NCBI GenBank assembly: GCA_028688835.1
Contig: JAQTXL010000004.1
Span: 1 to 43,772, forward strand
Origin: Candidatus Nanopelagicales bacterium
GTDB taxonomy: Bacteria > Actinomycetota > Actinomycetes > S36-B12
DNA length: 43,772 nt
Reading direction: 5' to 3'
Shown here: in pieces, positions 3,019 to 15,340 of the stretch
Layout of the letters: each line of letters starts with the position of its first letter
Position numbering within the stretch: the stretch's first letter is position 1
Made by a program: the position numbers and the translations under genes
The notes under the pieces: model-generated
Database searches by the model: none
Told to the model about the DNA's origin: nothing
Seen by the model: only the letters and a program-made list of their open reading frames with translations

Positions 3019-3807
3019 GTGACCCGAGTGAGACCCCGCGCGCGCGTCGCGTCCGGGCAAGAGAAGGTGGTCATCGCTCGCAGTGGAAACCGCTGCGCTT
3101 ACCCCGACTGTCGTGCCGAACTCGTCTTTGACGCCGACGCCGAGGGCGACCAGCCAAAGGTCGTCGGCAAGGTGGCGCACATCGCTGCAGCTAGTCCGGG
3201 TGGTCCGAGGTATGACGCCTCGATGACGGATGCTCAACGCAGCTCAGCCGAGAACCTCATCTACTTGTGCGGGCCGCATCACGACGCCGTCGACTCGCAA
3301 CTAGACAAACACACGGTCAAGTATCTGCATGACGCCAAGGTCACGCACGAGTCGGCAGTCGCTCGGGCGGTAAAGAACGCTCTCGGAAACGTGACCTTCG
3401 AGGAACTTGGTGTGATCTGCGGGGCCATCTCAAGCGCACCCGACCCAAGCCAGGCCACAACAGTCGAACTCGCGCTACCCATCCAGGACAAGATCACGCT
3501 GAACGAGCTCGGGGCGGTGAGCGCGGAACGCATCTCAGCGGGTCTTTCCCAGGCCTCGCGCGTTGCTGAGTTTATTGCCTTCCAGCAACAGACCTCGTCG
3601 AACTTCGGCCGCAGACTCGTCAGTTCCTTCAAAGCCGAGTACTTCGCCGCAGAGGCCGAGGGCCTCGATGCCGACGGCATCTTTGACAGCCTGGTACTCA
3701 CCGCCTACGACAACTCAGGTCCCCGTCAGACGCCTACAGTGGAGGCAGCTGCTCTAGCAGTCGTCGCTTACCTATTCGAGATTTGTGAGATCTTCCGCCG
3801 TGAGTGA
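3019..3807 (+). CDS. HNH endonuclease-domain protein, putative effector of an ABC-3C system
   Basis: CAYPDC ... VAHIAAASPGGPRYDASMTDAQRSSAENLIYLCGPHHDAVD is an HNH motif; about 170-aa C-terminal extension; start codon uncertain (GTG at 3019). Confidence 0.8.
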   Translation: MTRVRPRARVASGQEKVVIARSGNRCAYPDCRAELVFDADAEGDQPKVVGKVAHIAAASPGGPRYDASMTDAQRSSAENLIYLCGPHHDAVDSQLDKHTVKYLHDAKVTHESAVARAVKNALGNVTFEELGVICGAISSAPDPSQATTVELALPIQDKITLNELGAVSAERISAGLSQASRVAEFIAFQQQTSSNFGRRLVSSFKAEYFAAEAEGLDADGIFDSLVLTAYDNSGPRQTPTVEAAALAVVAYLFEICEIFRRE

Positions 3808-4030
3808 CCTCTACCCCGACAAGTTCACGCCTATCGAGCGAACAGTGGTGGGCGAGAGCGCCTTGCTCCTCGGTCTGCTCCGGGGGCGCGCCATCAGCAT
3901 CGGGCAGCTTTTCGTCGAATTCCGCGACGTCGCGCCGACGACCACATATGACGCCTTTGCTCTGGCACTCACATTCCTTTACGGCGCGGGAGCAGTCACG
4001 CATCGAGATCAGATCGTGACCGTGCCCTGA
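3800..4030 (+). CDS. Small middle component of an ABC-3C-like system (MC6-like)
   Basis: Starts GTG at 3800 overlapping the HNH stop; VSDLYPDKFTPIERTVVGESALLLGLL...; stop overlaps next ATG (TGATG). Confidence 0.6.
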   Translation: MSDLYPDKFTPIERTVVGESALLLGLLRGRAISIGQLFVEFRDVAPTTTYDAFALALTFLYGAGAVTHRDQIVTVP

Positions 4031-5757
4031 TGCTCCTCCGCATCTCGACCAACAAGGAGGAGTTCAAGCCGATTGACTTCAAGCCCGGCTTCAATGCCAT
4101 CGTGGCGGAGCGCGCTACGGATTCGACTGATCAACACAGCCGGAACGCCCGAGGGAAATCAACACTACTCATGCTGGTGAACTACGCACTCGCGGGCAAC
4201 CTAAACAGCGCTCTTCGTCCGCTTGCCGCAGACGGCTGGGAAGTGAGCCTTGGTCTTGAGATGTTCGGTGGTCAAGTAACGGCGACTCGCGCACTCGCTC
4301 GTGGCACGAAGCTCAGGATCGACGCTACCGGCCCCGCGAACGAGGTCATGCGACCGTACCTCTCCGAGGGGCAGATCTCGGTCGCAGATTGGAAGGACCT
4401 ACTCGGTCTCGCGCTGTTCCGCCTCGAGCCCGCCGAACAAGAGATGACAAGCGGACTATCCGCGCGCACATTGCTTTCTTATGTCATTCGAACAGAGCCC
4501 TCTAAGGACCCCCTAAAGATCGTGGCGCAACAGTCAGCGACGAGTAGTCGCGAGCACGTCTCCTACCTGCTCGACTTGGATTGGACGGTCGTGCACGAAC
4601 TGGCCGGGATCAAGACTGGACTAGAGCAGCTCAAGCAGATTAGGGCGGCGGCTAGCGATGGGCTCATGTCGACGTTGCGGCCTGAAGCCGACCTGCTGCT
4701 GGAACGTGCCGCTCTAAAGGGTGAGCTCGACGAATGGGAGGATCGGATCTCTGGTTTCCGTGTGCTCGAAGACCCGAACTCGCTCGTCATCCGAGCCGAT
4801 GAACTGACGGCAAGCATCTCGGTGCTGAGGGACGAAGCTGTGGTGGATCAAAGAATGCGACAACTCTATCGGGCATCGCTCGATGAAACCCCGAACGGTC
4901 TATCCGTTCAGACAGCCTCGGTCGAAGACCTCATTTCCGACGCTGGGCTTGTACTTGCGGAAGGGTTCATCCGCCAGGCCGAAGACGTTCGTGATTTCCA
5001 TGCCGAGCTACTGAGGAACAGGCGCGCCTACCTCCACTCAGAGGTAGAACGACTCAACGCCCGGATCGCGGAACAAGCAGATGAGCTGGCCCGCCTCGAC
5101 TTGCAACGCGATGCCCTGCTCCGAACGCTTCAGGCGGGTGGCGCCCTAGAGGAACTCGATGCGATGAGGAGTGAACTTAGCGGAGTTCAGTCGCGCATCG
5201 CGGCGGTCGACCAACAGATCGAGCAGGCCCGCGAAATCGCGTCGCGCAAGGAACAGCTCAAGCACGCCCGATCGACCAAGCGAACAGAAGCTGCAGGGGA
5301 ACTCAGCCAGTCGCGAGCCAAATTGGATCGTGTCAGCGAGCGGCTCAGTCTGAAGATGAAGCAGCTTTACGGGCACGAGGCCGCTCTGACCGTAGAGGTT
5401 GACGACATGGGCTTCAAGTTCAAGCTCACCACGGCCCGAGCCGGAAGTAGCGCCGTAGACCGCATGATGATGTTCTGCTTTGACCTGACAATGCTCGAAG
5501 AGGGCGTCACGACTGAGCACCACCCCGACTTTCTCATCCACGACTCAACCGTCTTCGACGGTGTTGACCCGCGGCAGCGTGCCAGCGCGCTGCGATTCTC
5601 CCAGCAGATGGTCGAGGCAACCGGCGGGCAGTACATCTGCACGATCAACAGCAACGATGTTCCGGGGGAAGTGCTTGATCAGCAGTGGTTCAAGGACGGC
5701 GTCGTGCGCACGATCCTCGATACCGAGGCCGGTGGATTGCTTGGACGGGAGTTCTAG
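4030..5757 (+). CDS. DUF2326-type ABC ATPase with coiled coil (ABC-3C ATPase)
   Basis: Walker A-like NARGKSTLL near N-terminus, long helical middle, C-terminal HHPDFLIHDSTVFDGVDPRQ Walker B-like segment. Confidence 0.8.
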   Translation: MLLRISTNKEEFKPIDFKPGFNAIVAERATDSTDQHSRNARGKSTLLMLVNYALAGNLNSALRPLAADGWEVSLGLEMFGGQVTATRALARGTKLRIDATGPANEVMRPYLSEGQISVADWKDLLGLALFRLEPAEQEMTSGLSARTLLSYVIRTEPSKDPLKIVAQQSATSSREHVSYLLDLDWTVVHELAGIKTGLEQLKQIRAAASDGLMSTLRPEADLLLERAALKGELDEWEDRISGFRVLEDPNSLVIRADELTASISVLRDEAVVDQRMRQLYRASLDETPNGLSVQTASVEDLISDAGLVLAEGFIRQAEDVRDFHAELLRNRRAYLHSEVERLNARIAEQADELARLDLQRDALLRTLQAGGALEELDAMRSELSGVQSRIAAVDQQIEQAREIASRKEQLKHARSTKRTEAAGELSQSRAKLDRVSERLSLKMKQLYGHEAALTVEVDDMGFKFKLTTARAGSSAVDRMMMFCFDLTMLEEGVTTEHHPDFLIHDSTVFDGVDPRQRASALRFSQQMVEATGGQYICTINSNDVPGEVLDQQWFKDGVVRTILDTEAGGLLGREF

Positions 5758-6183
5758 GACCGCCTCGCCCCGGCCCGCTGGTTTCGCGTATTGAAGTCGA
5801 ACCTCCCACCAGCCTCACCACGCTGCCCCAGACCAACCGGCAGTGCCACTTGCTCAGGCGGCCAGGAGCCTGCGTGAAATAGGCACGCCTTGCTGCGCAT
5901 CCGTCGACTGGCCTTCCACTATGCGAACGTCTGTGGCTCGAAAGGGAGTTCAGTCGTGCACTGGGCGTGCAATATTGAGGAGGCGAGACGGCGCCAGAGG
6001 AGTTGATGCCTCAGTCCGCGCCGTGCCCGCTCGAGCCGGTTCTCTCAAGAACTCCCCTACATCCCTGTGAGGTTCTCCGGCCTTTGGTTCCTCCAATGGC
6101 TTGCGGACTGTTCGCTTGCTCGATGAGCCGACATGTAGGTCTTCGAACTACTCCGCGTTCAAAGAGTCTCGCGGCTGGTTTGG

Positions 6184-6882
6184 CTACTCTGTATCTGACG
6201 AGGGCTGATCGGGAATCCACTCGAGGCATTCAGGGCACTTCTTCGCCACAAGTGGAATTTGAGAGGCACAGGCTGGGCACGCTTTCTTCCTAGACCTGAA
6301 TAGGCCGTCCATTCGATTGGATGAAACTCGACTTCGTTCAATATTGGCGAGTTCCTTAATGCTTGAAGCGATGGCCTCACCAGGATCCGTAAACGATGCG
6401 AAGAGCACGCCACGAAGTGACGTCATGTTGATCGTGAAGCTCTCTGAGTACCTTCTTCCTTCGCCGGAGTATGCCAAGTCGAAGGTCAGCGCGACGTGGT
6501 CACCGTCTGGCCTGTCGAATACTTCCTCGCGAGGAAGAAGTACCTGATATCGGTATCGCCGACCCGGCGCCAAGTAGGACACGCCGTTGGCAATGCCAGT
6601 GACCGCCTGCACTTCAGCCGCCAACTCGGCAGATCCGACCACAGTTGCAGTGATCGTGATTCCTTGGGCTGCACGTTCACCGTCATTCCCAATGACAAGT
6701 TCGGCTCGTCCCGTACCCTCCGCCCGAAAGTCGATGAAGGCGTAAGGGCGCCTTGATTCAAGGGCACTCCTGGCCATGTTCCTGGTCAGCAATGCGTACC
6801 AGCCGGTGATGAACACGAGTACGAGTGAGCTGATCAGCTGCAGACTTCCAGCGTGCGCGTCGAGGTAGTCCATATTGCGCAA
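6184..6882 (-). CDS. Membrane-anchored protein with C-terminal zinc ribbon (alternative ATG at 6873)
   Basis: N-terminal hydrophobic helix LQLISSLVLVFITGWYALL; C-terminal CPACASQIPLVAKKCPECLEWIP. Confidence 0.65.
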   Translation of the reverse strand: MRNMDYLDAHAGSLQLISSLVLVFITGWYALLTRNMARSALESRRPYAFIDFRAEGTGRAELVIGNDGERAAQGITITATVVGSAELAAEVQAVTGIANGVSYLAPGRRYRYQVLLPREEVFDRPDGDHVALTFDLAYSGEGRRYSESFTINMTSLRGVLFASFTDPGEAIASSIKELANIERSRVSSNRMDGLFRSRKKACPACASQIPLVAKKCPECLEWIPDQPSSDTE

Positions 6883-6922: not shown

Positions 6923-8218
6923 CTACTGAGCTAGCGCGGACGCAGCTCGGTAGCCAGAAATCGCTGCATTCCAGTCGAAGTCCAGTACGAGTTGGGATTC
7001 CGCCGATACTTCCTCGGCGCTTTGCTCAAGCGCAGTCAGCGTACGGTCGCGGATCGAAGTGACGCGATCAATCGCGTAGTCGGTCGGAATGCCCAGGAGC
7101 TCGGCGACCACTCGCCAGTCGTCGTTGGCTACACGGACAAATGCGTCACTCTTGCCGAGAATGAACGAGGCGTGCAATTTGCGGACCGAGTCGAATCGCT
7201 TGCCCCAGGGCCGGGTGAAGGGCAATGCACTGTTCAGGTCATAGAGCGGAGCCAGGAGCGCGTCAGGGCCGGACAGAAGCAGGGAGAAATTGCGCGCATG
7301 GCCATCGGTGCCGGCGATTGCGTAGTTGAACGCCAGACCATCGAAGAGTCGTTGCGCTGACGATTGACGAAGGTGTGCCGGCAGCCTTCGCAGCAGTGAG
7401 CCGATCTGCCTGATCCCTGGCCCACCGTCTCGTTCGTACTTCTGCCACGCCGGGTAGCCCAGTGCCTGGCACAGGTCCTCCTGATGAATCCGCTGGACCT
7501 GTCCTTCGGCGGATGTCAGCCTGTCGTAGCGAACGACAACCGCAGCATGCGTGCCGTCCACAAGCGGCTGAAGCCACGCTGCTGCAGTACTCAGTCCAAG
7601 ACGGCGGGCAGCCCGCAGGCAGATGACTTCGAAGGCGTCGAACTGCTCGAACCCTGGGATTGCGGGCTTGACGATGTGGGTTGTCGGAACTGCGCCAAAC
7701 GGGATGCCCCACAGCCCATCCGCGTAGGCAAGGGCAATCTTGGCCTGCGCGCCGGCCAGTGACCACTGGCCATGCTGTGACAGCGGCAGTCCACCCGCTG
7801 CGGCCGATCGACGCAGGTCTGCGATCCGCTCCGCAAACTCGACCTCGCTCAGCCGATCGACACCGCCGTTGCTCGGCAGTCCCTGGCCGACCGGGACCAC
7901 GCAGACGGCTCCCGGCAAGTCACGGCCGACGTACTCCAACAGCCCCATGACATTTGAGCGCGAGACGCCGGACTCGAGTTCGATGCGCTCACGCGCTGCA
8001 CCCTGCTCTGGCAAGAGTGCTTCGAAGAAGTTGGTGACGGCTCCCTGCAAGTGCTCGGCTCTTGCGAGGGGAATCGACAGCGACAGCGGAGTCGCGTCGA
8101 TGGCATCTCGGTAGTGCGCGTCATACTCGAACTCGAGTGCGCGCCCATCGGGTGCGCGCAGCCGCCCAGCGAGGCGCTCCCCCAGCCAGACATCGAGTCC
8201 ATGGTCAGTGACACTCAT
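6923..8218 (-). CDS. hipA: HipA-family serine/threonine kinase toxin
   Basis: GAVCVVP; WSLAGAQAKIAL; HIVKPAI; HQEDLCQALG; DGLAFNYAIAGTDGHARNFSLLL; APLYDLNS, all typical HipA motifs. Confidence 0.92.
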   Translation of the reverse strand: MSVTDHGLDVWLGERLAGRLRAPDGRALEFEYDAHYRDAIDATPLSLSIPLARAEHLQGAVTNFFEALLPEQGAARERIELESGVSRSNVMGLLEYVGRDLPGAVCVVPVGQGLPSNGGVDRLSEVEFAERIADLRRSAAAGGLPLSQHGQWSLAGAQAKIALAYADGLWGIPFGAVPTTHIVKPAIPGFEQFDAFEVICLRAARRLGLSTAAAWLQPLVDGTHAAVVVRYDRLTSAEGQVQRIHQEDLCQALGYPAWQKYERDGGPGIRQIGSLLRRLPAHLRQSSAQRLFDGLAFNYAIAGTDGHARNFSLLLSGPDALLAPLYDLNSALPFTRPWGKRFDSVRKLHASFILGKSDAFVRVANDDWRVVAELLGIPTDYAIDRVTSIRDRTLTALEQSAEEVSAESQLVLDFDWNAAISGYRAASALAQ

Positions 8219-8475
8219 GCTGAGCCCTCGTGCGCCCTCACCACAGAAGCCAGATCCACCGGAACACGGCGAGGCTCGATAGCTGTCACCAGTCCAAGCG
8301 CAGCCATGACGTCCAGCACCTTCGCAACTTCCACTCGACCTGAGCCGCGTTCAAGGCGATTCACGAGGTCACGGCTGACACCTGCCTTGGCGGCAAGTTG
8401 AGCCTGAGTCCAGCCCCGCTCCCCACGGACACTACGGACGGCACCCGCGACATCATCAACAGTGGCAATGCGCAC
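8215..8475 (-). CDS. hipB: HipB-family antitoxin, XRE HTH (GTG start)
   Basis: RGERGWTQAQLAAKAGVSRDLVNRLERG HTH; 4-bp overlap with hipA start. Confidence 0.85.
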   Translation of the reverse strand: MRIATVDDVAGAVRSVRGERGWTQAQLAAKAGVSRDLVNRLERGSGRVEVAKVLDVMAALGLVTAIEPRRVPVDLASVVRAHEGSA

Positions 8476-8487
8476 AGCACCTCCAAG

Positions 8488-8589
8488 TGTCGGCGTTCGC
8501 CGACATTTTAGCACATGTCGGCGCTCGCCGACAATCGGTTCCCTGTCGGCGCTCGCCGACATCTGAGACTCTATCGGCGTTCGCCGACA
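8488..8589 (+). promoter_or_regulatory. Four-copy palindromic operator array upstream of hipB (18-bp sites at 8488, 8516, 8544, 8572)
   Basis: TGTCGGCG-YT-CGCCGACA repeated with exact 28-bp period; fourth copy has one changed base (TATCGGCG). Confidence 0.85.
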
Positions 8590-8775
8590 CCCGCACTCAG
8601 AACCGGGCGCGAAGGAACCCTGGCTATGCCGGAAGGAAGGTGCATCCACCTCCTCGTCGAGTTCCACTCATGCATATGGTTCGTCAGCCCGCATCAGTCA
8701 ATGATGACGAGAAGTCGGAACTGGCCCTTGTCCAGACCACCGCCGACGAGCCTCCAGTAGACGGGAAGCAACACG

Positions 8776-9138
8776 ATGAACTTGACATGGCTAGAGGCCG
8801 GCGCAGCGGCCTGCCTCATAGTCGGGCTGCTACTGATTGTTGTCGCCGCAGTATGGGCATACCGACGCTTCGGCGCGAGGAAGACGGAGTTGGATCTTCG
8901 GCTCAGTAGCTTCTGGGCGGAGGAGGCATCCGCAAAAGCGGACGATCGACCGTTCGATGAGCATGCATATGCCGATATCACGGCAACCTATGCCGATCTT
9001 CGCGTTCTCCGCGCGACCACCCTCAGTGCTTTGCTCGATGACGCGCGTCAGAGCGCCAAAGGTGGTCCAGCCCTTTTGGCGCTTCTCGGGATCGTCCTGC
9101 AGACAGCCGGAGGCATTGCGCCACTGATGAGCGGATAG
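8776..9138 (+). CDS. Small single-pass membrane protein, unknown function
   Basis: N-terminal hydrophobic helix AACLIVGLLLIVVAAVWAYRRF followed by a soluble helical region and a second hydrophobic stretch. Confidence 0.55.
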   Translation: MNLTWLEAGAAACLIVGLLLIVVAAVWAYRRFGARKTELDLRLSSFWAEEASAKADDRPFDEHAYADITATYADLRVLRATTLSALLDDARQSAKGGPALLALLGIVLQTAGGIAPLMSG

Positions 9139-9259
9139 ACGGGCAGAGGTACCGAGAGTCGCGCCAGGACTCCCCCGCTGGGCAGCCGCGTCTCCCGATG
9201 CTGAGACATCGTCGTTCAATACATCGGGTAACCACGTCCACTCAATTGCGGCGAAGTGC

Positions 9260-9371
9260 GTGCGATACCCGTGCGATAAGGCCCTGAGGCACACACCAGA
9301 CAGAAGGCTTCCAAGACGTGCGTAAAGCCTTACACGAGAACAAGAATCCCCCGTGCGATAGTCGTGCGATA
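9260..9371 (+). repeat. Two pairs of GTGCGATA octamers (9260/9271 and 9353/9364), putative arm-type recombinase sites
   Basis: Octamers 11 bp apart within a pair, pairs 93 bp apart; same layout at 15069-15180. Confidence 0.7.
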
Positions 9372-9422
9372 GCGAGAGGGCTTGAACGGGGTCTGACGGT
9401 GAATCAGGCGGGCATATGAAAA

Positions 9423-9455
9423 GCGGATACCCCTTGCATTCCAAGGGGTATCCGC
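9423..9455 (-). terminator. Hairpin terminator, 14-bp stem and 5-nt loop, T-rich tract on minus strand
   Basis: GCGGATACCCCTTG-cattc-CAAGGGGTATCCGC; minus strand continues CTTTTCATAT. Confidence 0.75.
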
Positions 9456-9456
9456 A

Positions 9457-9502
9457 GTGGGGCGGGCGGGGCTCGAACCCGCGACGACCAGATTATGAGT
9501 CC
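9457..9502 (-). repeat. 46-bp tRNA-Met 3' fragment (att-type duplication; internal att site)
   Basis: Identical to 15266-15311 (gtggggcgggcggggctcgaacccgcgacgaccagattatgagtcc); 5' half of the tRNA absent. Confidence 0.9.
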
Positions 9503-9639
9503 TGTAGTGCCCGCTCACGCCTTCTCGAGCCCGCTCGAACCCACGCGATCGCCGGTAACTAGGACAAGAGTCACCTGACTTGTGCACTCGCTTCACCTGT
9601 TAGAAGTAGATCGCAACGACAATGCTCAGCGTGAGGGAA

Positions 9640-12600
9640 TCAGCCAGCAAATTCATCAATTGGGTCTGTACTTGAATCAAGCCAACCGGCCGCCGCGGGG
9701 ATTCCCCCCTGTATTGCTCGATCAACCAGAATTTGAACGGCGTCAGGCCCTTGCTGCTTTCGAAGCCTTCGAACTATGGGGCCTACCTCGTAGCCCAACC
9801 ACTGCGGATTTTCAACGTGTGAGAGCAAGTGAGCCATGAGTTCAATTGTTCCTAGTGGATGGCGTTCGGGGTGCGTGGAGCTCTCGAGACGACGAAGTAC
9901 TGATGAATGGTTGCCGAGTTTGAAGTCTCTCCTGACGACTAGATCTACGGCATGCTCAAATTCTTGATCCAATGCCGCTAGCCACGAGGCCGCGATGCAC
10001 CAATCAGGGTCCGAGACAGTGATAGGGAGGCCACGCGAGAGGTCGCGCGTGAATTGGCACAACCAACGAGTCCATATTTGGTCAGACTTGGCACCGTCTT
10101 CGTAGTCGAGGTAGTGCTCCACTGCAGACATGGCGAACGGCACTTGATCCGGCTGAATCTTTGAAAGAATGCTGGATAGGTATTCGGTTGAGCCAGTTCC
10201 ATTCGAATTTGGCGCGTCAGCGATCGACACAACAAGTCCGAAGAATTGACGCTGCAATCGTTTGTCGAGCTGATTGACACAAGCCGAGAAGCTCAGGGTT
10301 GCGTCCGCGTAGCCACGATCAATCATTCGAAGGTTCACGCGTGGGTGGTAGAGATGGCCTTCCCAGAAATGGCGTCCGCCCCCTTCAGCTGACTCCATGC
10401 TGCGAAATACATGGTCTGCTATCAAGTCCTCATAGGCATGGAATAGGAATGCGAGCTCTGCACCCATGGCGGCACGCGGCCCCGCAAGACGCTCATCCAT
10501 GCTGCCAGCGATCATGGAGAATCGCTCACCACACTCAAGCACGAGTGCATTCTGGGGATCGTCCTGACGAATCTGACTTGTCAGGTGGATCCAGAACTGC
10601 GTTAGGACTCCCGGCCAGGAGTTCAGTGCTTCAAACATCGCGTCCACAGCGCTTGAACCCGAGAAGGAATCGATCCTCGAGTCCCACAAGCGGCACGACA
10701 ACGCGAATGCACTATTGCGCGCTGCCGCTGGGATCAAGTCTTCCGAGCCGCGAACGCCTCGGAGCAGCAGGGAACTCAATGCGCGTTCAATTCCATTGAA
10801 ATCCGACCAGCTACTAATGGCTGCGAGCAGCGATTCCCACGGGAGTTCTAGATCTGATTCTCGCCAGCCACTGAGCACTGCAGATGCCAATTGCTCTAGC
10901 TGAGGGGAGCTGCATTGCCCTAGGGCCAGGTTCCATATTCCAATTCCTTTGCCTGGAGATCGGCCAACTGCTCCTGCGACCTGGGCCACGCCGTCATCCC
11001 ATGATGGTTTATCGCTCCAATGGTCGCCGTACTCGACGGCGAGCAGCTTCCGAATAGCTGCGACTGGATCGTCGGCTAGCTCTGCATCGAACTTAGCCTC
11101 ATCGAAGGGTGGGCGTGGTTCAACCCAGCCGCCGCTGGTAAAGGAGTCGAGGTCTGGGTGTTCGCCAATCTCCCAAATTGCGTGCGCAGCCTGTAACGGC
11201 GCTAAGGCAGAAGCAGCTTCGGCCCAACTTGCGTCGGCCGCCAGGAGCCAGTTCAGCAGGTCGTAGCGTTTGCGGTCTGCGTACTTTGGGTCAATAGGCG
11301 TGTCCAAAGCAGCAGCCAACAAAAGTCTTCTCGTTTCGACTGATGCCTGCTCCAATGACTCGCGGATCAGAAGGAAGACTTCATGCTTCAGTCCATACTC
11401 ATAAAGGAGTCCTTCAGACAACACAAGCCTTATGCGCTCGTCAACGTCTTCATGTGTGAGGAGCATTCCCCAAAGCGCGAGTCGCTTGAACAGGAGAAGG
11501 TCAGTCGACAGCCACCTTTCCACAATTGCGGCTGCAGCCTGCTTGTCACTGGCGGCGATGGATGCAAGTGAGTCTCGGACGGAGTCAATAATTGCGTCAG
11601 CGATTTCGCGATGCTCGTCCTGCGCATGTGGCTCGATTGCAGAGCGCCTGAAATTGATTGGATCAAAGGCGGAGTCACCCTGTTGATACGCGGAGTAAAG
11701 TTCACACGCCCCTTTGAGCGCATGCTCCCCGATCTCGAGCAGGTATGGCGCTGCCTCTGAGAGGTTGGGCTGAAGTTCGCTGGCCCAAACGTCTTCCACT
11801 GCGAAGTCACGAGTTGGCCATGAGATCGTCGACGATGGCCAGGCTCCTTCCTCGAAGCCGCCTAGACCGAATCGGTTTTCCAACTCAAGTCTCGGCTGCA
11901 GGGCAGTGCGCCAAAGGAGAAGCAACGCTCTCCTATGATCTTTCCATTTAGCTGAATGTAGGAGTATTCCAAGGAATGCGCCGACAGCGAACATATCCAC
12001 GGGTTGCGACAAGAGGACTGCGACCCATCGCTCATAGGTCTCGTTCGGTCCATCCTTTGCCTGTCGAGCTACGGCACTTGCCAATGCTGACCAAAGATGT
12101 GGAGACAACCCAGGTCGGCGCTTGAGTTCGTTTAGGGCTATGCGCTCGGCCGCAGGTGAACTGAGCGCTGCATCTGCAAACCAGTAGGCGAGTTGTATCC
12201 AGGTGCCATCTTCAGACGTGTCTGTCCAGTTGTGCTTGAAGGCATCACTGGTAGCAAGCCACTCAATCCAATCTGCTTGTGACGCGAATTCGCGGAATGC
12301 TTCTGAACCGTCCACGCTGTGGATAGCGCGGGCCAGATATTCCAGCTCTGAGAGTTCCGCAGTAGGAGGGCCAGACACAATCCTTTTCACTCGCTCGCGG
12401 CGAGCGAGCCCGCCTTCAGACACTATCTGGGCCCAAGCCTCCAGCGCCTGCGTCAGTTCAGAGTGCAACCCGTCCTCGTTGGGATACGCAATTGGCGCAA
12501 TATCGAGTCGGCCCCAGAGATCGTCATCGGGTTCGTCTGTAAGCACGTACCGACCCTGAGCACCGCGCAGACCTACGGCGAGATAGTCCATGACGGTGTC

Positions 12601-13278
12601 TCGGTGGCTATAGCCAACGAACAGCACGACCAAGTCACGAAACATTGGAAACAAGAAGCGAGCAGCCCATGCCTCTGTGAGGTAGGACACCCCAAGGTCT
12701 GCATCTGTGAGCACCATTTCTTCGATGCGGCCTACTGCCGAGCCGTGCAATTGAACAAGCCCGCTGAAGCTTCCCCCTAGCGGCAAAGCTGGACCCACAT
12801 ATTTGCCCACATTCGAAACACCAGCATCACCCAAAGCACTTGATAGGTGATCGTCGAAGTTTGTTGTCACGATGCGGAACGTCGGACAAGCTGAAGCTAT
12901 CTCGACTAAAGCACGATGATTGATGTTCGGCCTCGAATCAGGATTGGCAAGTACTTCGGCCACCAGGTCATATACGGGCGCACCCTGTTTTTGCAGATGC
13001 CCCAACAGTGCATCGGGGCGAGTCTCAAACTGCTTCATTACTTCTTCGCTGGTATTTCGCCGGTTGGCGATCCCTCGGGCTAGACCCTCGAACGACGGCA
13101 GGTTCGCGGGCGCGCTCATCGAGACGCCCGCACCGACGAACAGCACAAGGCGACCTTCTGCATGGGCGTCTAGGACTGCATCCGGCAATTCGACCTTGCC
13201 TGTGATGTGCACCTCTCCTCTGTCCTCTCCCCTATTCCCAGACCTCGTCCTTACTCCGCGCCTTGCCTCACTCGTCAA
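9640..13278 (-). CDS. Large SIR2-domain protein (up to 1212 aa), candidate NADase-type anti-phage protein; start uncertain
   Basis: RLVLFVGAGVSMSAPANLPSF, VTTNFDDHL, VQLHGS, LFVGYSHRD are SIR2 fold motifs; long helical C-terminal region. Confidence 0.85.
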   Translation of the reverse strand: MTSEARRGVRTRSGNRGEDRGEVHITGKVELPDAVLDAHAEGRLVLFVGAGVSMSAPANLPSFEGLARGIANRRNTSEEVMKQFETRPDALLGHLQKQGAPVYDLVAEVLANPDSRPNINHRALVEIASACPTFRIVTTNFDDHLSSALGDAGVSNVGKYVGPALPLGGSFSGLVQLHGSAVGRIEEMVLTDADLGVSYLTEAWAARFLFPMFRDLVVLFVGYSHRDTVMDYLAVGLRGAQGRYVLTDEPDDDLWGRLDIAPIAYPNEDGLHSELTQALEAWAQIVSEGGLARRERVKRIVSGPPTAELSELEYLARAIHSVDGSEAFREFASQADWIEWLATSDAFKHNWTDTSEDGTWIQLAYWFADAALSSPAAERIALNELKRRPGLSPHLWSALASAVARQAKDGPNETYERWVAVLLSQPVDMFAVGAFLGILLHSAKWKDHRRALLLLWRTALQPRLELENRFGLGGFEEGAWPSSTISWPTRDFAVEDVWASELQPNLSEAAPYLLEIGEHALKGACELYSAYQQGDSAFDPINFRRSAIEPHAQDEHREIADAIIDSVRDSLASIAASDKQAAAAIVERWLSTDLLLFKRLALWGMLLTHEDVDERIRLVLSEGLLYEYGLKHEVFLLIRESLEQASVETRRLLLAAALDTPIDPKYADRKRYDLLNWLLAADASWAEAASALAPLQAAHAIWEIGEHPDLDSFTSGGWVEPRPPFDEAKFDAELADDPVAAIRKLLAVEYGDHWSDKPSWDDGVAQVAGAVGRSPGKGIGIWNLALGQCSSPQLEQLASAVLSGWRESDLELPWESLLAAISSWSDFNGIERALSSLLLRGVRGSEDLIPAAARNSAFALSCRLWDSRIDSFSGSSAVDAMFEALNSWPGVLTQFWIHLTSQIRQDDPQNALVLECGERFSMIAGSMDERLAGPRAAMGAELAFLFHAYEDLIADHVFRSMESAEGGGRHFWEGHLYHPRVNLRMIDRGYADATLSFSACVNQLDKRLQRQFFGLVVSIADAPNSNGTGSTEYLSSILSKIQPDQVPFAMSAVEHYLDYEDGAKSDQIWTRWLCQFTRDLSRGLPITVSDPDWCIAASWLAALDQEFEHAVDLVVRRDFKLGNHSSVLRRLESSTHPERHPLGTIELMAHLLSHVENPQWLGYEVGPIVRRLRKQQGPDAVQILVDRAIQGGIPAAAGWLDSSTDPIDEFAG

Positions 13279-13407
13279 GGATTCAGACTATGTCTACAGT
13301 CGCAAGTGAAGAAACTTGGAATCTCTATTGACGCCCATAGTCGTTGGTTCCAGAACCTCCACCCTCTTACAACTCCTGGACCATGACATAGCAGCGTGAG
13401 TTCGGCG

Positions 13408-14679
13408 CTAAATCAGTCTGTCGGGTACCGGCCTCACCGGTCGTTCCGAGCGAGTGTCACCGCTCGCCGTGGCCAGCGACCTCTCGTACTTTGTCAGCAG
13501 CGCGAACACATCCCGAGCTTCAAAGAGTCGGTTGCGCGCAACACTGCCCGTCGACGTGAGCACACCTGCATCGACCAGGCGCGTCACCGCCGTGTTGGCT
13601 GCCTGGAAACTCACGCCTGTCAGCAATGCCAGATCGTCAACGGTGACTACCGGATGCGTGAGCAAGACGGTTAACGCGCGCTCTGCTGCGCTGCCCCGTC
13701 GCGAAGTCACGGCCACTCGCCACCGCGACTCAAGCGCAGCGAGGTCGTTGCTCAGTCGGCCCGCGTCCGCAACTGCTCGACGGGTCGCGGTAATGAACAC
13801 TTCGAGCCATCTCGAATAGGCCTCGCCAGCGGTCTTGGTGCCTGGTGCGCCGACGTATCTGAAGGAAGTAAGCCCGCGGATGTAGCCGCTGCTGTTGGTC
13901 GCAAGCGCCAGACTGACCGGCGGCACGAAAGCCGTAGCCGCATTGCGACGTCGAAGAACAACGTGAATCAGTGCACGCCCAGTGCGCCCGTTGCCATCGG
14001 CGAAGGGGTGGATCGTCTCAAACTGAGCATGGACCAGACCGGCTTGAACTACCGCTGGCATATCGTCGCGGTTGATGAAGGCACACAGATCGTTGAGCAG
14101 CGGTTCGACGAATTCAGGTGGCGGTGGGACGTAGTCGGCATCGCAAGGGTTGAAGTTGTTCCCCCCGAGCCAGTTCTGTGTCGCTCGGACGACCCCACCC
14201 AGTTCAGGCGTAGGCGACCTGTCCATCAGTGCACGATGCAGCGCAAGGACATGATCGACATTTACTGTGGGCACCTTGGCAATGTCGCCGACTGCCATCC
14301 GCATCGCCTCAATATTGCCCAGGACGGAGTCGGCCGTCTCGTCCCGAGAGAGCTCACCGTGGGCCATCATCGCCTCATGTCTGGCTAGACGTCGTGAGCC
14401 GATCGCGAGACCTTCTATCTTCGACGAAGCCACTGCCTCCGCTCGGAGGAGGAATCGGGCCAGCTGCTCGAGATCGCCACTCGCCGTAGCCTTCGCGTCG
14501 AAGGATGCAAGCGCCACTTCGGCATCGACGAGGTCTGCAGCGAGGTTGCTATCAAGTTCTAGGGTCGCGGCTGCCAACTCGTCGGGGACATACGCTTGGT
14601 ATCGGCACGGTCGGCGCGACTTGCGCGAGCCGTAGGCATCGGGAGACCCCTCCCAGAGGGATTCGACGAGTCGAGACAT
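13408..14679 (-). CDS. Fic-domain protein with N-terminal inhibitory helix and C-terminal winged HTH (upstream TTG at 14706 also open)
   Basis: HPFADGNGRTGR Fic motif; SSKIEG inhibitory motif; C-terminal TVDDLALLTGVSFQAANTAVTRLVDAGVL wHTH; GGAG 8 nt before ATG. Confidence 0.9.
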   Translation of the reverse strand: MSRLVESLWEGSPDAYGSRKSRRPCRYQAYVPDELAAATLELDSNLAADLVDAEVALASFDAKATASGDLEQLARFLLRAEAVASSKIEGLAIGSRRLARHEAMMAHGELSRDETADSVLGNIEAMRMAVGDIAKVPTVNVDHVLALHRALMDRSPTPELGGVVRATQNWLGGNNFNPCDADYVPPPPEFVEPLLNDLCAFINRDDMPAVVQAGLVHAQFETIHPFADGNGRTGRALIHVVLRRRNAATAFVPPVSLALATNSSGYIRGLTSFRYVGAPGTKTAGEAYSRWLEVFITATRRAVADAGRLSNDLAALESRWRVAVTSRRGSAAERALTVLLTHPVVTVDDLALLTGVSFQAANTAVTRLVDAGVLTSTGSVARNRLFEARDVFALLTKYERSLATASGDTRSERPVRPVPDRLI

Positions 14680-14698
14680 CCTTGAAGCTCCAATCTTC

Positions 14699-14751
14699 TT
14701 ATTCAAGTTTACATCACTAACCTTGAATAAGAAGCATTTTCATTCAAGGTT
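14699..14751. promoter_or_regulatory. Inverted-repeat half-sites upstream of fic
   Basis: TTATTCAAG (14699-14707), CTTGAATAA (14722-14730), ATTCAAGGTT (14742-14751). Confidence 0.6.
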
Positions 14752-15068
14752 GCTGAGCCACAGATGCGCCCCTACAGCGAACTCACCCGAAGCCCAGGAG
14801 GAGAAGGCCCTGACGGCCCAACTGGCAATTGACGGCCCGGGACGACCCTCCTGTCCTATGCCGACAGCTTTCGACGATTCGTGCGAGTCAGGTGGAGGCA
14901 ACCCCCACCCAACGTGAGGCCTTCAGCTCCAATGACGTCCATAGCCACTTCCGTTTAGGTACTCCGGTCTGATGACCGAGCTAGCTTCGCACCAACCTAA
15001 GGGGCTGCTAATGAGCCTCAAGTTCCAGAATCGTCCAGCTATTCGTCCGATTTCTTGCCACAGTTTGC

Positions 15069-15180
15069 GTGCGATAGTCGTGCGATAAGACCTCCGAGCG
15101 TCTACAGCCCAAAATGCCACCCCAAGGCCCAGGATGTGTTTCAGGAGAACGAGAAACCGACGTGCGATAGTCGTGCGATA
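15069..15180 (+). repeat. Two pairs of GTGCGATA octamers (15069/15080 and 15162/15173), putative arm-type recombinase sites
   Basis: 11-bp intra-pair and 93-bp inter-pair spacing, same as at 9260-9371. Confidence 0.7.
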
Positions 15181-15232
15181 GTGAGAGGGCTTGAACGGGG
15201 TCTAACGGTGCGACACACTGGCAATAGAAATA

Positions 15233-15263
15233 CGAAAACCCCTTGATTTGCAAGGGGTTTTCG
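15233..15263 (-). terminator. tRNA-Met terminator hairpin, 13-bp stem and 5-nt loop
   Basis: CGAAAACCCCTTG-atttg-CAAGGGGTTTTCG directly 3' of the tRNA. Confidence 0.75.
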
Positions 15264-15266
15264 CTG

Positions 15267-15340
15267 TGGGGCGGGCGGGGCTCGAACCCGCGACGACCAG
15301 ATTATGAGTCCGGGGCTCTCACCAGCTGAGCTACCGCCCC
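15267..15340 (-). tRNA. tRNA-Met (anticodon CAT)
   Basis: GGGGCGGTAGCTCAGCTGGTGAGAGCCCCGGACTCATAATCTGGTCGTCGCGGGTTCGAGCCCCGCCCGCCCCA folds as cloverleaf; anticodon loop CTCATAA; CCA not encoded. Confidence 0.95.

Follow-up and report, generated by a model that had tools for sequence, protein, structure and literature searches.

Organisation of the tRNA-Met locus

The window, i.e. the whole stretch of DNA that we analysed, spans 43,772 nucleotides of a Candidatus Nanopelagicales bacterium (assembly GCA_028688835.1, contig JAQTXL010000004.1, positions 1 to 43,772), and it contains a row of small units with SIR2, Fic, HipBA and ABC-3C-type genes that ends at a tRNA-Met gene. This gene, the intact tRNA-Met(CAT) at 15266-15340 (minus strand, ARAGORN), is the integration target and the anchor of the array. 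The part of it that runs from the anticodon loop to the 3' end forms a 46-bp attachment (att) core at 15266-15311, identical over 46/46 bases to a partial tRNA-Met core at 9457-9502 on the same strand, which marks the junction between two units. The identity breaks off immediately at either side. Some 3e-20 matches of 46 bases are expected by chance in 2 x 2.34 Mb, and the core has two copies only in the whole genome assembly. The element between them is bounded by repeats of the tRNA 3' end, while the tRNA itself is intact.

Left of each core lies a module of fixed order: two GTGCGATA-NNN-GTGCGATA pairs, a GAGAGGG block and a terminator-like hairpin. At the tRNA, arm pair 2 (GTGCGATAGTCGTGCGATA, 15162-15180, plus strand) starts 104 bp before the core and arm pair 1 (15069-15087, plus) lies 93 bp further out; the conserved GAGAGGGCTTGAACGGGGTCT block follows at 15181-15204 (plus), and the hairpin at 15231-15265 (minus; -22.5 kcal/mol, z -8.5) comes directly after the tRNA 3' end. 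On the tRNA strand it follows the tRNA and resembles an intrinsic terminator. In the left module, arm pairs 1 and 2 (9260-9278 and 9353-9371, plus) were located by module alignment and a genome-wide pair scan, and the GAGAGGG block (9372-9395, plus) by module alignment; the hairpin is at 9422-9456 (minus; -28.8 kcal/mol, z -8.0). The octamer pairs, starting at 9260, 9353, 15069 and 15162 with a 93-bp spacing within either module, are the sole four in the genome at <=2 mismatches, and a reversed-pattern control returned 0.

An ungapped alignment of the two modules, 243 bp long, shows 75.7% identity, unevenly distributed among their parts: 17/19 positions in arm pair 1, 19/19 in arm pair 2, 22/24 in the block, 25/35 in the hairpin and 46/46 in the core. 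Even the 74-bp spacer between the arm pairs retains 38/74 identical positions, against a mean of 20.8 and a maximum of 35 after shuffling. The hairpin sequences differ, yet both fold strongly (z about -8). Given this level of identity and the differing hairpins, the modules are diverged homologues and not a recent duplication.

These results bear on an earlier note on this DNA, which had claimed an identical 46-bp tRNA-Met segment at both positions, a shared module on its left and a junction of two related elements at 9457. The repeat is exact and the module, some 240 bp of arms, block and hairpin, is present beside both copies; the junction reading gains support from other genera, where the module occurs with a partial tRNA-Met core, alone or in tandem. 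A third 46-bp copy, which the note proposed to look for to the left of the window, is absent from the assembly, and the window begins at base 1 of its contig.

Modules, rows and recurring cassettes in relatives

Scanning 85 genomes of the family for the octamer pair identified six further genomes from two other genera, with block, hairpin and tRNA-Met core behind the pair in 6/6. The second arm pair of the relatives' modules starts 103-104 bp before the core, and 10/11 modules from three genera measure 149-150 bp from the first base of the arm pair to the last base of the core; GAGAGG is kept in most modules of the other genera. A covariance model of the module matches 62/85 genomes, a figure that does not count elements, many of the weaker matches being plain tRNA-Met genes. 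Pairs of GTGCGATA in viral contigs were considered as further modules and ruled out: neither a GAGAGG block nor a tRNA core is present at any of the 18 loci.

Same-orientation rows of cores are found in several genomes (G042:C18, G064:C325 with six, G073:C11, G084:C67 with three), as well as in G061, G062, G066, G041, G082 and others. They contain up to about six cores, spaced mostly 1.5-8 kb apart, and their cargo includes AbiE, Xre-AbiEii, HipA, DUF6036 nucleotidyltransferases and many genes without known function. Cargo shared between contigs is homologous from a point 0-3 bp from the core start onwards. This holds for AbiE units (G042, G082, G083, G084), Xre-AbiEii units (G066, G041 and two in G082) and integrase units (G005, G062, G084). 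Comparing the relatives' cores, units diverge right after ATTATGAG, which is the tRNA anticodon loop.

Two pairs of genomes illustrate such differences. On G084:C67 a unit consisting of an integrase only (3213-4867) lies between an AbiE unit and downstream DNA; G082:C43 is without it, and there the AbiE unit meets G084-type downstream DNA at a single core. In G061 and G062 the flanks are 95% identical as far as the core, beyond which the two genomes carry different units. In G004 and G007, which belong to the same genus as the window, synteny with the window is conserved to the right of the tRNA, and the tRNA has other DNA, shared by the two, on its left. The earlier note had proposed looking in relatives for an empty or singly occupied site; these two show the tRNA with no second core left of it, over the 9.9 kb and 3.6 kb that their contigs cover on that side.

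A second type of module left of tRNA-Met (L169, L170, L176) is without the hairpin and has a TTTCGGCTGATGCTTGA-like sequence adjoining the core. Contig G019:C24 has two tRNA-Met genes, both complete and separated by 20 kb (L183 4831-4907, L087 14723-14799), and a partial core. Three public records of metagenome-assembled genomes of the family (L093, L096, L098) are titled Bifidobacterium breve, apparently in error.

The probable cognate integrase and its absence from the window

On G084:C67 an integrase gene (PF00589 and SAM_3) stops ~210 bp short of a double arm that has the 93-bp spacing and comes with a tRNA-Met core. Because the module stands at a fixed distance from the tRNA core in other genera, and once directly downstream of an integrase gene, we conclude that, as judged from sequence, it is an attachment site, with the anatomy of those used by tyrosine integrases. 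The paired repeats next to the core are conserved, and in G084 they adjoin an integrase gene; as arm sites bound by the integrase they are putative.

Integrases of G005, G061 and G062 keep the R, K, HxxR, H and Y residues and look intact. Their nearest named relatives, at 36% identity, are integrases of mycobacteriophages. Integrases of this type have paired arm sites beside the core. Differing from mycobacteriophages, the units examined show no phage structural genes. The G084 integrase (L088 3354-4418) has an in-frame internal loss of ~50 residues, and its HDLRH reads HALRH.

No integrase was found in the window, either by the families searched or by similarity. Candidate remnants from tblastn with three integrases were rejected as noise (best E 0.014). 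The genome of the window, 96.7% complete, encodes two Xer-like tyrosine recombinases only and no relative of the cognate integrase; similarly, the genome with the six-core row, G064, gives a single Xer-like match. Base 1 of the window is also the first base of its contig, and the gene truncated by the start of contig C49 likely belongs to the chromosomal flank, which places the far left end of the array in an assembly gap.

Phased repeats and a probable third junction

Beyond the core, on the P-side, repeats with a 10-bp period (GTGCCCGCTC/ACGCCTTCTC/GAGCCCGCTC/GAACCCACGC, 9506-9545, plus strand) are common to 15 cores, where their consensus is NGTGCCCGCT. Identity at lag 10 is 0.48 vs 0.30 (z 10), and lag 20 gives z 7.8. 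In cassettes lacking an integrase these 10-bp-phased GTGCCCGCT repeats stand just beyond the core, and all complete units that follow phased repeats are without an integrase; integrase units have a different sequence at the P-side position. The arms, too, fall into sequence classes at similar distance from the core, namely GTGCGATA, GTGCAATA, GTGCCACT-like and GTGCACCA.

Using these features, we noticed a probable third junction at 5956-6041 (plus strand), from which hairpin and core are lost. It consists of an arm-like pair (5956-5974) and a P-side repeat (6022-6041), 66 bp apart and in the correct order. The arm-like pair has the third-best arm score (25.8; the next outside any module is 7.9), the repeat has the best P-side score in the window, and the covariance model matches the site with E 0.035. 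Suggestive rather than proven, this decayed junction was missed by the earlier note, whose division of the cargo into two segments stands for the SIR2/Fic unit; its ABC-3C/HipBA segment is probably two cassettes, a PDC-M68 and a HipBA unit.

Cargo of the window units

The unit adjoining the tRNA, 9503-15311, has both ends present, is flanked by att sites and contains no recombination or transfer genes. It encodes a Dsr1-like SIR2-domain protein (9640-13278, minus; Pfam SIR2_2; partial matches to Dsr1 models, 1.5e-57 / 4.8e-66) and a SoFic-like Fic protein (13408-14706, minus; Pfam Fic, PADLOC SoFic 6.8e-72). The former has no full-length relative in 84 family genomes, where one weak partial match was found. 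The latter is 89% identical to a Fic protein directly beside the integrase on G005:C40, and this integrase occupies the place where the window has the Dsr1-like gene.

The HipBA unit comprises an open reading frame (ORF) without NCBIfam match (6184-6882, minus), a HipA-type toxin kinase (6923-8218, minus; HipA_C 2.3e-41), a HipB-type antitoxin (8215-8667, minus; HTH_3, couple_hipB) and a small ORF with no family match (8776-9138, plus). G042 and G057 have hipBA DNA of 73% identity to it, close to tRNA-Met cores. Four TGTCGGCG-N-TCGCCGACA palindromes at 28-bp spacing (8488-8617), which lie immediately upstream of the hipB ORF and extend over its listed start, are probably HipB operators; G042 has a similar stretch.

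The leftmost unit, whose outer end falls outside the assembly, contains PDC-M68A (3019-3807, plus; ABC-3C CTD10, PADLOC 6.6e-94) and PDC-M68B (4030-5757, plus; DUF2326 / ABC-3C-like, Pfam DUF2326, PADLOC 8.1e-210). It also carries an excisionase-like HTH_17 protein (2143-2451, plus; Pfam HTH_17 9.2e-11), and a similar ORF is found near the G005 integrase. At the very edge, an ORF at 2-457, open at the contig start, contains PAPTPAPAPVPAG and repeated APPAGYTDNGSAYSK-type units and has no family match.

A proposed array of non-autonomous cassettes

We propose, as the most likely reading, that the window covers the end nearest the tRNA of a tandem array at tRNA-Met, made up of non-autonomous cassettes that are mobilised in trans. 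Each unit is bounded by cores, which consist of the tRNA sequence from the anticodon loop to the 3' end. Its tRNA-facing end carries one attachment arm made of two paired GTGCGATA sites 93 bp apart, the GAGAGGG block and the terminator hairpin, and units without integrase also have 10-bp-phased repeats at the inner side of the opposite end. The arms would be bound by a tyrosine integrase, which would recombine the core of a circular unit with the core in the tRNA; the incoming core would then complete the tRNA, the hairpin would supply its terminator, and the old 3' end would be pushed outward. Since integration displaces the old end in this way, the newest unit would be the one adjoining the tRNA, Dsr1-like/Fic, with HipBA and then PDC-M68, behind the decayed junction, as older units further out. 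An intact inner and a decayed outer junction fit such addition next to the tRNA. Lacking an integrase, the window units would have to be moved by one supplied in trans, like those that form core-bounded units of their own in relatives. The anatomy, its conservation, the recurrence of core-bounded units across genomes and the lack of an integrase in window and assembly are observed in the sequences; arm binding by the integrase, mobility in trans and the order of arrival are inferred from them. Going by sequence conservation, the system is family-wide.

Only tentatively would we extend this to an integron-like cassette system across the family of these aquatic Actinobacteria, with a tRNA-Met core instead of attC. 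There, double-ended standard modules would enclose defence and toxin cargo without integrase, the integrase would travel as one more unit, and arms GTGCGATA, GTGCAATA, GTGCCACT and GTGCACCA may act as compatibility classes for different integrases at one tRNA.

Several points weigh against mobilisation in trans. No excised circle or movement was seen. The window units were not found intact in another genome, and the mobility of integrase-less units is read from AbiE and Xre-AbiEii. The integrase beside the G084 module is itself the shortened one, about 50 residues being lost, and in the G084/G082 comparison the two genomes have dissimilar module sequences to the left of the core, leaving the match exact on the right side only. 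The hairpin is supported by folding energy and position only: its pairs are kept (88%) and slid versions are much worse, but compensatory changes are not above shuffles and covariation is on most measures no higher. The assembly is a draft, whose far-end gap could hold an integrase, and RecA recombination between repeated cores or modules would give equal core boundaries.

If the units were once autonomous and lost their own integrase after insertion, the stack would be an immobile graveyard. The missing integrase in window and assembly, the Dsr1-like gene in the integrase position of G005 beside the same Fic, the excisionase-like gene left at 2143-2451 and the decay of the outer junction all agree with this. 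We nevertheless find it unlikely, as unit 9503-15311 has intact arms, spacing, P-side repeats and core, and integrase-less AbiE and Xre-AbiEii units recur across genera at the same boundaries, which is hard to explain if integrase loss ends mobility.

We give about as little weight to a helper integrase unit in the gap left of the window that would mobilise the array in cis. The contig does start inside the array, the flank gene is truncated where C49 begins, and the excisionase-like gene lies near the left edge; however, an integrase is nowhere in the 96.7% complete assembly, and the G064 row is likewise without one.

Shuffling of units by RecA between repeated modules or cores, with no integrase at all, is less probable still. 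All units terminate in repeats of 46 to 250 bp and the core boundaries are compatible with both mechanisms, but the arm sites, the fixed 93/104-bp spacing and the 10-bp phasing resemble a protein-binding architecture that an integrase gene adjoins in G084, and units part from one another at a single point in the anticodon loop. A chimeric contig with its join in the repeated tRNA end, to which the breaking of several relatives' contigs exactly at such cores (G006:C31, C28) might point, is very improbable given two core copies only in the assembly, modules that differ by 24% and tandem rows in many independent assemblies.

Relation to known systems

Cassettes of the proposed kind recall several known systems. 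Like the cis-mobilizable elements (CIMEs) and the accretion of integrative and conjugative elements in streptococci, they are att-flanked units that lack an integrase, stand one after another at a single RNA gene and are expected to be carried along or mobilised by a related element. Dehalococcoides has integrase-less tandem islands at ssrA, which use a serine recombinase (PMC3146451). Compared to both, the units here are often 1.5-6 kb, the integrase can be a unit of its own and a bipartite att structure is visibly conserved; in contrast to Dehalococcoides, the recombinase belongs to the tyrosine integrases and has paired arm-like sites.

'Additive' flexible islands with repeats of tRNA ends are known from Ca. 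Actinomarinales (PMC7771536), and tRNA-Lys repeats from Ca. Methylopumilus (PMC10872708). Here as there, small cassettes stand beside tRNA genes with direct repeats of the tRNA end and exchange between genera; our cassettes lie beside a tRNA, carry tRNA-fragment repeats and vary among relatives. The main text of the Actinomarinales paper makes no mention of an integrase or recombinase (PMC7771536), whereas the present family has arm-like sites, phased repeats, a terminator, an identified cognate integrase and many defence or toxin units.

With integrons and clusters of attC sites lacking integron integrases (CALINs; PMC11389934) the array shares cassettes set in one orientation, part of them lacking an integrase, that would move in trans. 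Its sites differ in being tRNA cores with double-strand arm-like sites, and it has no fixed integrase platform; no attC-type cassette site was seen, though no search aimed at attC was run, and the window has no integrase. Tycheposons, too, are tRNA-associated cargo elements of aquatic bacteria with a tyrosine recombinase, tRNA-Met being one of their targets. They are reported at 4-200 kb with their own recombinase (PMC10872708); here we mostly see small integrase-less units in rows, and none of the window units carries a tyrosine recombinase. Additive islands are closest in setting, and CIMEs together with CALINs closest in logic.

Repeats of tRNA ends beside cassettes were already reported in streamlined aquatic bacteria. 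A literature search without most subscription journals returned no paper on this module or integrase. Here one can follow the attachment anatomy through a family, a likely recombinase is named and the cassettes can be delimited to a few bp. Defence-gene turnover at one locus thereby becomes countable from metagenomes, and mobility in trans of defence cassettes that lack an integrase can be tested specifically.

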